This document shows, piece by piece, positions 43,585-47,798 of a stretch of DNA of 64,000 nt. The notes beneath the pieces were generated by a model. It worked only from the letters and a program-made list of their open reading frames with translations, was not told where the DNA came from and ran no database searches. The stretch lies in NCBI RefSeq assembly GCF_004766125.1, contig NZ_SJSA01000002.1, positions 682,001-746,000 of the forward strand, given 5' to 3'. Both the position numbers and the translations under genes were made by a program. Every line of letters starts with the position of its first letter. The first letter of the stretch is position 1. This stretch comes from Duncaniella freteri (GTDB taxonomy: Bacteria > Bacteroidota > Bacteroidia > Bacteroidales > Muribaculaceae).

Positions 43585-44358
43585 TTACTTTATATGTTCG
43601 CGTGCCTCTAACAGATATCTCGACATAGCTTCGGAATCATGAGCCTTGACTATCTCAAGCAACTCGTTGAGTTTGCCCACTATACCTTCAAGCTGTGACG
43701 AGGTGTGAGGGTTGAAAAGAATCTCGCTCACCAGATAATCGTCCTCACTCATTAGCCCTTCGGCAATCTGCATATGACGCTTGAAAGTGGTGCCCGGAGC
43801 CTCCTGGTGCTTCATGACAGACGCGAATGCGAGAGTAGCTGCAAACGGTATCGAAAGCGAATAGGCGATAGTCTCGTCGTGCTGCGCGAAGGTGTACTCA
43901 ACGATGTTGAGCCTAAGCCTGGTATAAAGGTCCCTGAAGAACACTTTGCCAAGATGATCACCCTCCGAGATGATTATGGCGTTCTCGTTGCTAAGGTTGC
44001 TAAGCGATGCAAAGGTAGGTCCGAACATGGGATGTGTGCTCACAAAAGGATGTCCGCATCCGGCATAGAATTCCGGCAATCCGGTCTTGACCGACGCAAT
44101 GTCACTGATGATGCATCCGTCGGGCAGATAAGGCATCACCTGGCGGAAGGCATCAATGGTGTATTTAACCGTGGATGCATTTATGACCAACTGAGGCAGG
44201 AACCCATCCACCTCCTCAATATCGGAGAACCTTCTGGCATTGAACGTGAAACGCAGACGCTTCGGGTCGGGGTCGTAGACAGCGACATCGTGGTCAAATG
44301 ACAACAGGTCACAGAAGAAGGAGCCCATCTTTCCGGCTCCAAGTATAAGGATTTTCAT
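43585..44358 (-). CDS. tyrA: Prephenate dehydrogenase
   Basis: A 257-residue NAD(P)-dependent enzyme for tyrosine synthesis. The Rossmann start MKILILGAGKMGSFFCDLL and the conserved HPMFGPTFASL block with STVKYTIDAF are present, followed by the helical dimer domain. It is shorter than enteric TyrA and lacks the ACT and chorismate mutase parts; the mutase is on the upstream gene. It overlaps that gene by one base. Use of arogenate instead of prephenate cannot be excluded. Confidence 0.88.
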   Translation of the reverse strand: MKILILGAGKMGSFFCDLLSFDHDVAVYDPDPKRLRFTFNARRFSDIEEVDGFLPQLVINASTVKYTIDAFRQVMPYLPDGCIISDIASVKTGLPEFYAGCGHPFVSTHPMFGPTFASLSNLSNENAIIISEGDHLGKVFFRDLYTRLRLNIVEYTFAQHDETIAYSLSIPFAATLAFASVMKHQEAPGTTFKRHMQIAEGLMSEDDYLVSEILFNPHTSSQLEGIVGKLNELLEIVKAHDSEAMSRYLLEAREHIK

Positions 44359-45437
44359 TACGACTGCTTTTTATTGTTTAGCTCCACCTGTATGCGCACC
44401 GACTCCTCGTGGATTGTCGACAGTATCGAACGCATGAAATCCTCGCTCATGCCCATTGACTTGGCAGCAAGCACACGCGTGGTCATGATATCATCGTAAC
44501 GCCCTGCCTGGACTACAGGCATGTTGTGCTCCTTCTTGAAAGCACCGATCTCACGCGACACATTCATCCGCTTTCCGAGCACTTCGATCAGTTCGTTGTC
44601 AAGCTGGTCGATCTGACGACGCAGATGCACAAGATTCTCGGTGGGGACAGGAGCGTCACGGAACACAAGATTGTCGAGAATAACACCAAGCACCTCGGGA
44701 GTTATCTGCTGGTTACGGTCGCTCCACGCACAGTCAGGATCGCAATGGCTCTCTATGATAAGACCGTCGAATCCCATATCGAGGGCCTGCTGGGAGAGGG
44801 AGGCAATGAGTTCGCGCTTGCCTCCTATATGACTCGGGTCACATATTATAGGAATGGAGGGGAAACGGCGGCGCAGCTCCAAAGGTATGCGCCACTGCGG
44901 ATGATTGCGATAAATCTGCGGTCCGTAAGTGGAGAATCCGCGATGTATGACACCAAGACGGCGGATACCTGCGTTATAGAGGCGTTCGAGCGCACCTATC
45001 CACAGGTCGAGGTCGGGATTGACAGGATTCTTGACAAGCACTGGTATATCCTTGCCCGCATCTTTAAGCACATCGGCAATCTCCTGCATTGCGAACGGAT
45101 TGGCAGACGTGCGCGCACCTATCCACAACAGGTCTACTCCATATTCAAGAGCCGCCTCGACATGACCTCGGTTAGCCACTTCGGTCGACACTTTCATACC
45201 GGTCTCCTCCTTTACCTTATTGAGCCAAGCAAGCCCCGGAACACCTATACCCTCGAAGCCTCCCGGCTTGGTGCGAGGCTTCCATATGCCTGCACGAAAT
45301 ACTTTTATGCCTGCACGCGCAAGACCGCGGGCTGTGGTCAGGACCTGTTCTTCGGTCTCTGCGCTGCACGGACCTGAAATTATGATGGGACGGTTGAGCT
45401 CAACACTGTCTATAGCGAGCGGGAGAATATTTTCCAT
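44358..45437 (-). CDS. Bifunctional DAHP synthase / chorismate mutase
   Basis: A 359-residue fusion. Residues 1-260 form a type I beta DAHP synthase: IIISGPCSAETEEQVLTTA, FRAGIWKPRTKPGGFEGIG, VLVKNPVNPDLDLWIGA and IPIICDPSHIGGKRELI. Residues 265-350 are an AroQ-type chorismate mutase: LVHLRRQIDQLDNELIEVLGKRMNVSREIGAFKKEHNMPV. The enzyme makes the first shikimate intermediate and also commits chorismate to Phe/Tyr; the mutase domain commonly gives feedback control in this fusion. It lies between the aminotransferase and tyrA in the Phe/Tyr operon. Confidence 0.93.
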   Translation of the reverse strand: MENILPLAIDSVELNRPIIISGPCSAETEEQVLTTARGLARAGIKVFRAGIWKPRTKPGGFEGIGVPGLAWLNKVKEETGMKVSTEVANRGHVEAALEYGVDLLWIGARTSANPFAMQEIADVLKDAGKDIPVLVKNPVNPDLDLWIGALERLYNAGIRRLGVIHRGFSTYGPQIYRNHPQWRIPLELRRRFPSIPIICDPSHIGGKRELIASLSQQALDMGFDGLIIESHCDPDCAWSDRNQQITPEVLGVILDNLVFRDAPVPTENLVHLRRQIDQLDNELIEVLGKRMNVSREIGAFKKEHNMPVVQAGRYDDIMTTRVLAAKSMGMSEDFMRSILSTIHEESVRIQVELNNKKQS

Positions 45438-45479: not shown

Positions 45480-46646
45480 TTATTTTGACATAGCCTTCCG
45501 TATGCGGTCAAGAGCTTCGGAAAGCTTTTCCTCAGGGGCGCAAAGGGAGATACGGATATACCTCTCACCGTTATGTCCGAATATGAATCCAGGGGTCACA
45601 AACACCCTTGCCTCATCAAGAATCCTGTCGGCAAGACGCTCTGAGTCCACCTCAGGATCGCTTATGCGCCCCCACAGGAAAAGTCCCGACTGAGAAGGGT
45701 CGAACGTGCAGCCTAAAGCCTCCATGATGCGCTCGGCTATGACACGCCTTGAGGCATAGGCGGCATTCAGGCTTTCGTGCCAGCCAGCCTCCTCCTCAAG
45801 AGCCTTGGCGGCAGCAAGCATAAGCGGCTTGAACTGACCGGAATCGATATTGCTCTTGATGCGCAGTATCCATGACAGGAACTCCGGGTTGCTTATAGCC
45901 ACCCCTACACGCCATCCGGGCATATTGTGGCTCTTGCTTAGCGAGTTCAGTTCTATGGCTATCTCCTTTGCTCCCGGCACAGAAAGGATGCTCATAGGTT
46001 CAGGATTGAGAATAAACGAGTATGGATTGTCATGCACGATGACTATTCCGTGACGCCTTCCGAAATCGATAGCCTTCTCAAAAGTCTCCCTGCGGGCTTT
46101 AGCACCTGTAGGCATATGCGGATAATTGAGCCACATAAGTTTCACACGAGTAAGGTCGAGACGTTCGATCGCATCGAAATCAGGCTGCCAACCGCTATCC
46201 TCCGTAAGATCGTATGTGACAACTTCCGCTCCTGCCATACGGCTTATGGATGAATATGTTGGATAGCCCGGGTCGGGTATCAGCACCTTATCTCCGGGAT
46301 TCAAGAAAGCAAGGGATATGTGGGTCACCCCTTCCTTAGAGCCGATGAGAGGCTGTATCTCGGTGAGAGGGTCGACCTCTACCCCATACCATCTCCCATA
46401 CCATCGGGCAAACGCCTCACGGAGCTGTGGAACACCGACATGTGGCTGATATCCATGATTGGAAGGGTCATGGACAGCTTCAGCCATAGTCGTTATGACG
46501 CCTGAGGGTGGCGGAAGGTCGGGACCTCCGATCCCGAGCGATATTATATCAATGCCCCGGCTACGAAGAGCTGATATCTCTTTAAGTTTTGTAGAGAAGT
46601 AATATTCCTTTATCTGCTGTACTCGTTGTGAGGGTTGAATATTCAT
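45480..46646 (-). CDS. PLP-dependent aminotransferase, class I
   Basis: A 388-residue fold-type I aminotransferase. Features: NIQPSQRVQQIKEYYFSTKLKEI start, ISLGIGGPDLPPPS, PLIGSKEGVTHISLAF, LMWLNYPHMPTGAKA (cofactor Asn/Pro), IVHDNPYSF (Asp/Tyr) and the PLP lysine in IELNSLSKSHNMPGWRVG, with Arg in ERYIRISLC for the substrate carboxylate. Placed between pheA and DAHP synthase, it most likely transaminates phenylpyruvate and hydroxyphenylpyruvate. A TTG at 46700 overlapping the pheA stop is possible, but the ATG at 46646 matches the family start. Confidence 0.88.
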   Translation of the reverse strand: MNIQPSQRVQQIKEYYFSTKLKEISALRSRGIDIISLGIGGPDLPPPSGVITTMAEAVHDPSNHGYQPHVGVPQLREAFARWYGRWYGVEVDPLTEIQPLIGSKEGVTHISLAFLNPGDKVLIPDPGYPTYSSISRMAGAEVVTYDLTEDSGWQPDFDAIERLDLTRVKLMWLNYPHMPTGAKARRETFEKAIDFGRRHGIVIVHDNPYSFILNPEPMSILSVPGAKEIAIELNSLSKSHNMPGWRVGVAISNPEFLSWILRIKSNIDSGQFKPLMLAAAKALEEEAGWHESLNAAYASRRVIAERIMEALGCTFDPSQSGLFLWGRISDPEVDSERLADRILDEARVFVTPGFIFGHNGERYIRISLCAPEEKLSEALDRIRKAMSK

Positions 46647-46696
46647 TGCTGACAAGTATTTTTTCCGGCATGAGTCACGCCATAAATTATAAACGT

Positions 46697-47542
46697 TCAA
46701 TGAGTCACTTTTGCTTCGGAGTATTCACCGAGAATACTTAAATCACGAATCAGAGGTCGCACCGCATCGATAGCCTGATGCAAACGCAGCAGGCTGTCGA
46801 ATGTCAGGTCCACATAAAAGCGGTACTCCCATTCCCTCCCGACAATCGGGGTGGACTGTATCTTGGAAAGGTTGATGTCATAGAATGAGAGTATGGTAAG
46901 GATCTTTGACAGCGCACCCTGGGTGTGAGGGAGGGTGAACACAATCGATGCCTTGTCGATATCCTGCTCCCCCGGACCTATCTCACCTGCGGTGAGAGCA
47001 TCGGCAAGAATGAGGAACCGGGTGAAATTACGCTTGTTGGTCTCAATACCACGCTCAAGTATATCAAGTCCGTAAAGCCCTGCGGCATATTCTCCGCACA
47101 CAGCGGCATGCCCCACAAGGTTATCACGAGCAATCTCCTCGGCACTCCCGGCAGTGTCGAACCGCTCCACAATCTTGAGATTGGGGTGACGACGCAGGTA
47201 TTGCTCACATTGCATAAGAGCCATCGGATGAGAGTTCACTTCAGTGAGCCGGTCAATCTCCTGCCCGGGAAGCGCACACAACACATGTGAGATGCGCATC
47301 TTCAATTCACCTATCACCTTGAGGGTGCTCTGCCGCAGGAGTTCATGGTTCTGAAGTAACGGTCCGGCAATAGTGTTCTCCACTGCCATGATACCCAAAA
47401 GCGAGGAGTCGGACGAAAGAGTGTCAAACATTGCCGGGAACGACTCACACGGAATTGTCTCGACCTCCTCTCCCTCAAAGTAAAGATGGGCAGCGGCATC
47501 ATGGAAGCATCCTGCCACCCCTTGAATAGTGATCTTTTTCAT
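46697..47542 (-). CDS. pheA: Prephenate dehydratase
   Basis: A 281-residue enzyme turning prephenate into phenylpyruvate. The catalytic domain (1-180) starts ITIQGVAGCFHDAAAHLYF, with MAVENTIAGPLLQNHELL and the TRF motif in KRNFTRFLIL. The C-terminal ACT domain (about 195-275) has HTQGALSKILTILSFYDINLSKIQSTPI and binds Phe for feedback inhibition. There is no chorismate mutase domain, which is on the DAHP synthase two genes later. It is the first structural gene behind a Phe/Tyr leader peptide and terminator. Confidence 0.95.
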   Translation of the reverse strand: MKKITIQGVAGCFHDAAAHLYFEGEEVETIPCESFPAMFDTLSSDSSLLGIMAVENTIAGPLLQNHELLRQSTLKVIGELKMRISHVLCALPGQEIDRLTEVNSHPMALMQCEQYLRRHPNLKIVERFDTAGSAEEIARDNLVGHAAVCGEYAAGLYGLDILERGIETNKRNFTRFLILADALTAGEIGPGEQDIDKASIVFTLPHTQGALSKILTILSFYDINLSKIQSTPIVGREWEYRFYVDLTFDSLLRLHQAIDAVRPLIRDLSILGEYSEAKVTH

Positions 47543-47556
47543 TTCACCTGTATCTT

Positions 47557-47596
47557 AAAAAATCATCCCGCCTCCTTTGTGTCAAGGAAGCGGGAT
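47557..47596 (-). terminator. Attenuator terminator in the pheA leader
   Basis: On the minus strand a 13-bp stem (47584-47596 with 47565-47577, one G.U) with a 6-nt loop is followed by T6 (47557-47562). It stands 14 nt before the pheA start codon. Its 5' arm (positions 47587-47595) can also pair perfectly over 9 bp with 47663-47671, the bases right after the leader peptide stop codon, forming an exclusive antiterminator. Confidence 0.85.
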
Positions 47597-47662
47597 ACTG
47601 TATTGTCGATTGCTTATCGGCTATATGCCTTGTTGATCATTCATCGGATTATGTACGCAATG

Positions 47663-47671
47663 TCCCGCTTC
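47663..47671 (-). promoter_or_regulatory. Antiterminator segment of the pheA leader
   Basis: GAAGCGGGA on the minus strand, immediately after the leader TAA, is fully complementary to TCCCGCTTC in the terminator 5' arm (47587-47595). A ribosome reaching the leader stop would cover it and favour termination. A ribosome stalled earlier leaves it free to block the terminator. Confidence 0.75.
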
Positions 47672-47731
47672 TTATTTTTTTGCAAAATAAAAATAATAAA
47701 AAAAGGAATATGCGTAAAATCGTGAATTCAT
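47672..47731 (-). CDS. Phe/Tyr-rich leader peptide of the aromatic operon
   Basis: A 19-residue frame, MNSRFYAYSFFYYFYFAKK, ends in TAA. Five Phe and five Tyr codons occur, eight of them in a nine-codon run apart from one Ser (YSFFYYFYF). It begins about 31 nt after the predicted transcription start and lies ahead of pheA, the aminotransferase, DAHP synthase/chorismate mutase and tyrA, exactly the Phe and Tyr pathway. With the antiterminator and terminator downstream it forms a complete ribosome-stalling attenuator. There is no Shine-Dalgarno sequence, as is normal in this phylum. The peptide itself need have no function beyond its translation. Confidence 0.8.
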   Translation of the reverse strand: MNSRFYAYSFFYYFYFAKK

Positions 47732-47766
47732 ATCAAAATTGATAACTTTTGCTTTCAATTACGCAG

Positions 47767-47798
47767 CAAAGGTAGGATATATTTTACAAATCACCAAA
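47767..47798 (-). promoter_or_regulatory. Promoter of the pheA operon
   Basis: On the minus strand TTTGG (47794-47798), 19 nt, then TACCTTTG (47767-47774), a full match to the Bacteroidetes consensus. Transcription would start near 47762 and give a leader of about 220 nt. Confidence 0.7.

Follow-up and report, generated by a model that had tools for sequence, protein, structure and literature searches.

Does the short, Phe/Tyr-rich open reading frame (ORF) that precedes pheA in the Duncaniella freteri window (the whole stretch of DNA analysed here, 64,000 nucleotides; all positions below refer to it) control the aromatic amino acid genes that follow, and by what device? The original prediction proposed a ribosome-stalling attenuator working as a simple two-state switch, with the antiterminator segment placed directly after the leader stop codon and no separate region 1. 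The Phe/Tyr leader-peptide attenuator in front of a joint operon, with a conserved antiterminator, holds up in the present analysis, but the two-state switch without region 1 does not. We consider it very likely that the leader is a ribosome-mediated transcription attenuator in which one leader peptide reads both charged tRNA-Phe and charged tRNA-Tyr. Judging from the sequence, it very probably switches the Phe/Tyr genes on only when either amino acid is short. What is presented below on the elements of the sequence and how they are conserved, on pairing, and on the agreement between leader codons and operon content was obtained by computation.

Elements of the leader and the operon downstream

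All the elements of the proposed attenuator were recovered on the minus strand at their predicted positions. The leader starts with a -33 element, TTTG (47795-47798), and a -7 element, TACCTTTG (47767-47774), which are separated by a spacer of 20 nt (between 47798-47795 and 47774-47767) and which, from the consensus (TTTG and TAnnTTTG), we take to be a promoter of the Bacteroidetes type; transcription would start a few nucleotides 3' of the -7 element, at about 47763-47760. The leader ORF, MNSRFYAYSFFYYFYFAKK followed by a stop codon (47672-47731), consists of 19 codons, 10 of which are Phe or Tyr codons, and is predicted to be translated; an aromatic ORF is kept at this place upstream of pheA in related genomes. 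Region 2, GAAGCGGGA (47663-47671), adjoins the leader stop and represents the 5' arm of the antiterminator; over 9 bp it is perfectly complementary to a portion of region 3, TCCCGCTTCCTT (47584-47595), a match not equalled in any of 200 shuffles. Region 3 is both the 3' arm of the antiterminator and the 5' arm of the terminator, in which it pairs with region 4, AAGGAGGCGGGA (47566-47577). Together with the T6 tract (47557-47562), this hairpin forms an intrinsic terminator located between the leader ORF and pheA. The stem, for which 13 bp had been predicted, is indeed present along with the T6 tract, but its contiguous part is 12 pairs long, with one G-U pair among them, and two flanking pairs would bring it to 14. 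The energy of the terminator hairpin is -23.9 kcal/mol, and the folding of the leader beats that of all 200 dinucleotide shuffles (z -5.65).

The operon that follows on the minus strand consists of four genes identified by domain matches, which bears out the claim of a joint Phe/Tyr operon. The first is pheA, encoding prephenate dehydratase (PDT; 46697-47542; PF00800, 2.9e-50), followed by a class I/II aminotransferase (45480-46700; PF00155, 3.8e-60), a DAHP synthase fused to chorismate mutase (DAHPS-CM; 44358-45437; PF00793, 1.1e-36 and PF01817, 6.3e-21) and prephenate dehydrogenase (PDH), of the tyrosine branch (43585-44358; PF02153, 9.7e-8). The aminotransferase ORF is listed with a TTG start and the domain scan covered 45480-46640; translation more probably starts at an internal ATG. 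When both strands of the whole window were scanned, a single module consisting of an aromatic ORF, a terminator and a 2:3 helix was detected, namely the pheA leader. Elsewhere in the same genome, no leader was seen by eye in the upstream regions of leuA, ilvD and thrA, HisG had no match, and a single chorismate-binding enzyme was detected.

Searches against Rfam, the families of which include Phe_leader, yielded no matches at the gathering thresholds in the window and in 16 relatives; at E<=10, eight matches covered the leader, none of them to an amino acid leader family. The T-box likewise had no match at the gathering threshold in the window and was not among the eight leader matches at E<=10. 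Leader-peptide attenuators are known from the enterobacterial pheA, pheST and trp genes, and the window leader shares with these an ORF rich in codons for the product, a terminator 5' of the first gene, mutually exclusive 2:3 and 3:4 hairpins and a protector hairpin 1:2. It differs from these systems in reading two amino acids, in having a Bacteroidetes-type promoter and in lacking an Rfam match; pheL of E. coli, in particular, contains Phe codons only.

Conservation of the leader, terminator and promoter

Upstream regions of pheA were compared for 170 loci, comprising the window, 80 related loci and 89 of 138 further matches; a leader ORF was scored when it contained at least six aromatic codons in 12, and a terminator when its energy was below -8 kcal/mol. 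An aromatic leader ORF was detected in 142 of the 170 regions, and each of these 142 has a terminator. In the comparison of related pheA upstream regions that had been proposed as a check, the aromatic runs turn out to be kept in most of the regions. At least one ORF counted among the 142, that of locus L092 (genome G127), was judged to be false. The 28 loci without a scored leader include five that are cut by contig ends (L004, L038, L054, L075 and L129), one with a weaker leader (L021), 11 in which pheA lies behind a coding frame and 11 that are unexplained. The coding frame located, by eye, immediately 5' of pheA (L034, L048, L050, L052, L056; L057, L062, L065, L066, L072 and L073) comes in two repeated arrangements, and the attenuator seems to be absent from these 11 Muribaculaceae-like loci.

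A wider sample from the phylum consisted of 49 matches, namely the 29 best loci and a further 20 whose genomes lie outside the class. The aromatic ORF is present in 26 of the 29 best loci (the misses are L176, L184 and L199) and in none of the 20 further loci from outside-class genomes, where the best score was 5. Under a stricter definition, which requires seven or more aromatic codons together with a terminator and a 2:3 helix, the module is present at 161 of 219 loci, again with none among the 20 further outside-class loci. Three of the 29 best loci, L171 (G308), L174 (G427) and L194 (G360), are also labelled as outside the class and nevertheless have an aromatic leader ORF before pheA; these leaders could result from transfer or from classification, and, as labelled, they show the device extending beyond the class.

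The promoter is conserved along with the leader. The motif TTG-N18-23-TAnnTTTG occurs at most 110 nt 5' of the leader ATG in 116 of 158 leaders, with 0.8 expected from mononucleotide shuffles, and TAnnTTTG alone is found upstream in 139 of the 158, compared with 10.6 expected. The module is also specific in its location: in the 80 related loci (1234 strand-kb), 57 modules were found at the leader site and three elsewhere.

Two further observations were made in these loci. Trp codons are present within the aromatic run at 25 of 158 loci, in certain lineages, and some leaders may read Trp as well. Four loci (L002, L020, L021 and L031) are titled Paenibacillus, Pseudoflavonifractor, Clostridium and Lachnospiraceae, and encode PheA proteins that are 74-91% identical to that of the window; these are probably mislabelled metagenome bins.

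Competing hairpins and the proposed mechanism

The antiterminator is supported by several comparisons. In 116 of 141 leaders, a 2:3 helix of the observed strength is reached by at most 5% of 200 dinucleotide shuffles. When region 3 of each leader was paired with region 2 of another leader, the mean 2:3 energy was -11.96 kcal/mol (sd 0.22), compared with -16.46 kcal/mol for the leaders' own partners (130 unique leaders, 10,000 permutations). Several distinct pairing codes are found among the leaders, including GAAGCGGGA/TCCCGCTTC, GACAGGATTT/GAATCCTGTC, AAGGTGGGAT/ATCCCACCTT and CGAGGCT/AGCCTCG.

The position of region 2 was measured in 128 leaders, which remained after removal, from the 142, of six whose aromatic run and terminator are over 120 nt apart (L090, L094, L096, L128, L144 and L165, all of the tandem type described below), six near-duplicates, L092 and L016. 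The distance from the last aromatic codon to the start of region 2 has a median of 12 nt (interquartile range 10-14, range 5-20), whereas the position of region 2 relative to the stop varies from -60 to +8. The constancy of the former and the variability of the latter imply that the ruler of the device is the aromatic run and not the stop codon. The stop precedes region 2, as it does in the window, in 49 of the 128 leaders, and lies inside or beyond region 2 in the other 79, so that the placement of region 2 directly after the stop, which had been taken for a feature of the design, is not conserved.

Region 1, for which the original prediction saw no need, emerges from the pairing of the leader coding sequence around and after region 2. 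In the window it comprises codons 2-10 and the U-rich Phe/Tyr codons of the leader ORF (within 47672-47731), to which the pairing tests below refer. In the minimum free energy structure, UACGCA and the U-rich ORF codons pair with a stretch that runs from the stop to UGCGUA, and region 2 is buried. The resulting hairpin 1:2 (47654-47716, minus strand) is closed by an outer pairing of UACGCA (47716-47711) with UGCGUA (47659-47654), inside which UCCUUUUUUUAUU pairs with AAUAAGAAGCGGGA. Across the family, the mean energy of the outer 1:2 helix is -12.00 for the leaders' own partners and -8.48 for swapped ones (sd 0.22; n=128, without L092 and L016); an earlier swap test likewise had the own partners stronger by approximately 5.2 kcal/mol, a value to be read as a difference only, its absolute mean being unreliable. 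Synonymous codon choice favours the pairing as well: random synonymous recoding of the ORF weakens 1:2 (mean z -1.38, n=128), with 46 of the 128 leaders at p<=0.05, and in the window the hairpin scores -21.9 against -16.3 for the recodings (p=0.02). These pairwise swap and synonymous tests do not allow for shared ancestry. No consensus structure emerged from RNAalifold when 55 leaders aligned with MAFFT were examined; by eye, the register of 1:2 shifts between sequences, and for these reasons the swap and recoding tests were used instead.

The effect of a ribosome on this competition was modelled by folding only the RNA 3' of an assumed ribosome footprint, with the transcript made up to region 3. 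In the window, every A-site position from codon 1 to codon 18 leaves the antiterminator with a probability, P(2:3), of 0.95 or more, and this drops to 0.00 once the ribosome has reached codon 19 or the stop. Of the 128 leaders of the family, 125 have a P(2:3) of 0.5 or more if the ribosome stalls three codons short of the last aromatic codon, and 122 do so if this codon itself occupies the A site; a ribosome at the stop brings P(2:3) below 0.5 in every one of the 128. The freeing of an exclusive antiterminator by a stalled ribosome is thus a computed property of these leaders. For the full-length window RNA at equilibrium, 3:4 prevails wherever the ribosome is, so antitermination has to be kinetic, with the choice made during transcription; classical attenuators likewise decide during transcription.

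The following scheme would accommodate these results. Three mutually exclusive hairpins would compete, the protector 1:2, the antiterminator 2:3 and the terminator 3:4. When Phe or Tyr is short, the ribosome would stall in the aromatic run and mask region 1, leaving region 2 exposed approximately 12 nt ahead; the exposed region 2 would then form 2:3 as RNA polymerase completes region 3, and the operon would be transcribed. When both Phe and Tyr are ample, the ribosome would proceed to the stop and mask region 2, 3:4 would form and transcription would stop. When the leader is not translated, 1:2 would tend to sequester region 2. In this scheme, we infer that the promoter is used, that ribosome and polymerase are coupled, that the ribosome stalls and that transcription terminates in the cell.

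The principal alternative dispenses with region 1, such that untranslated RNA would form 2:3 and be read through, and termination would occur only with a ribosome at the stop. This possibility draws on the thermodynamic model of ribosome-free RNA, in which 80 of the 128 leaders reach a P(2:3) of 0.5 or more, so that a lock by region 1 is not general in the model, and on the 49 of 128 leaders, the window included, in which the stop precedes region 2. It has to contend with the advantage of 1:2 over both swapped partners and synonymous recodings, and with the ribosome-free P(2:3) of 0.05-0.08 in the window, where region 1 has the effect of a protector in the model. On balance, we regard a switch without region 1 as unlikely.

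Leader codons, operon content and tandem modules

If the attenuator senses what the operon makes, the leader codons can be compared with the genes downstream. Among 136 loci drawn from the 80 related loci, the further matches and the phylum search, all with more than 1.2 kb of sequence downstream of pheA, the module occurs together with at least one partner gene in 103, with a mean Tyr fraction of 0.49, and without any partner gene in three, none of which has a Tyr codon in the run; 28 loci have partner genes without a scored module, and two have neither. A second set comprised 69 Bacteroidales genomes, of which 67 are represented among the 89 further matches used above (59 from one group of 60 and eight from the other group of 29) and two are additional matches of that search; the first 20 of the 69 were chosen with knowledge of the leader composition and the others by availability; partner genes, that is, the aminotransferase, DAHPS-CM and PDH, were sought in the downstream stretch that was read. 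An aromatic ORF is present in 64 of these 69 genomes. All seven genomes whose run contains at most one Tyr codon (G208, G024, G014, G089, G213, G034 and G273) have a pheA without partner genes within the first 5.1-5.5 kb downstream, or 2.3 kb in G273. By contrast, 56 of the 57 leaders with at least two Tyr codons precede at least one partner gene: all three in 34 cases, DAHPS-CM and PDH in 13, the aminotransferase and DAHPS-CM in four, DAHPS-CM alone in four and the aminotransferase alone in one. The exception, G127, was judged to be a false ORF, with no module in the set of 136 loci. Because nine of the 56 lack PDH in the stretch read, the codon rule tracks the joint operon and not the tyrosine gene itself. 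Of the five genomes without a scored leader, one has partner genes and four have none.

Where the operon is split and the region upstream of the Tyr operon could be read, the latter has a mixed Phe/Tyr leader of its own in six of six genomes (G014, G089, G034, G024, G208 and G127; loci L252, L255, L256, L264, L265 and L266). The Tyr operon of G089 has two leaders, the first with a poor 2:3 helix (-5.8). In G273, no leader was found in the 168 nt upstream of the PDH frame, and no PDH was found in G213. When 40 PheA proteins were placed in a tree, the three tested rows that have Phe-only leaders (L087 and L089 together, L108 apart) required two label changes, which fits an origin of such leaders in two separate events. 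Given that the leader codons vary with operon content, the specificity of sensing can be read from evolution, and this variation amounts to a natural experiment on that specificity.

These data also bear on two other readings of the leader. TnaC exemplifies leaders with peptide-specific arrest, and by analogy the nascent chain might sense a small molecule, with MTRFYAY as the arrest motif; the good conservation of the M-T-R-F-x-x-Y N-terminus among Muribaculaceae leaders would agree with this. The same stretch, however, is part of region 1, with codons fitted to the pairing; since synonymous choice favours 1:2, the conserved MTRFYAY start looks, from the recoding tests, to reflect an RNA constraint at least in part. 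Elsewhere in Bacteroidia the leader peptide is highly variable except for its aromatic content, and the Tyr codons are gone where the partner genes are gone, all of which makes peptide-specific arrest very improbable. Also very improbable is a non-regulatory origin, in which some unrelated short RNA would own the terminator and a U-rich tract would yield the aromatic ORF as a by-product, for although Phe and Tyr are easily encoded by such tracts, just three modules occur elsewhere in the 1234 strand-kb of related loci, conservation extends jointly to the ORF, the promoter, region 2 and the terminator, and the F/Y content tracks operon content.

The multi-amino-acid leaders thrL and ilvL of E. 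coli resemble the attenuator described here in that a single leader senses several amino acids made by the operon. The differences are that the amino acids and the phylum are other ones and that Tyr is absent, or nearly so, from the leaders of pheA genes that lack the partner genes downstream. The promoters and translation starts of Bacteroidia differ from those of E. coli, and the present results extend textbook attenuation, with strong comparative support, to this class. The kind of device is already known, given the attenuation clues in print for Flavobacterium and Bacteroides thetaiotaomicron and the mgtCBR tandems. In the parts of these reports available to us, 'strong clues' of leader-peptide attenuation before amino acid operons are described in Flavobacterium psychrophilum (PMC9723704), and B. 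thetaiotaomicron is noted to have short ORFs that call leader peptides to mind within its long 5' UTRs (PMC7366714); those parts name no Phe/Tyr leader, pairing tests or link between codons and operon. The Phe/Tyr family, the codon-operon link and the tandem forms were not found in searches of an open-access library; a comparative survey of attenuation (Lopatovskaya et al., 2010) may cover Bacteroidetes.

Two modules in series are located upstream of pheA at 14 loci (L090, L091, L094, L095, L096, L116, L128, L143, L144, L150, L152, L158, L165 and L179), the first modules of L143, L144 and L158 being weaker; L163, considered as a 15th tandem locus, was judged spurious. The two terminators are spaced 141-161 nt apart in 13 of the 14 loci, and the 2:3 codes of the two modules differ. 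In all 28 comparisons, the own 2:3 pairing of a module is stronger than the pairing across modules, with means of -14.9 and -17.1 for the former and -9.4 and -8.0 for the latter; random pairs of single-module loci, which include related loci with a shared code, have a mean of -11.7. The sequences thus suggest that tandem modules may be insulated from each other. Tandem attenuators with two short ORFs and stem-loops controlling transcription are described in the Salmonella mgtCBR operon (PMC3641672); by comparison with the part of that report consulted, the Bacteroidia tandem loci differ in repeating the aromatic signal in both modules, with cross-pairing weaker than own pairing.

We consider it probable that the leaders belong to a Bacteroidia-wide, uncatalogued attenuator family which acts as a re-programmable sensor: where the operon is split, the pheA leader would shed its Tyr codons and the Tyr operon would have a mixed leader of its own, and several lineages would stack two modules with orthogonal 2:3 codes as a two-step Phe/Tyr check. 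Tandem modules with separate pairing codes would serve as ready-made parts for graded control; the window leader itself consists of a single module.
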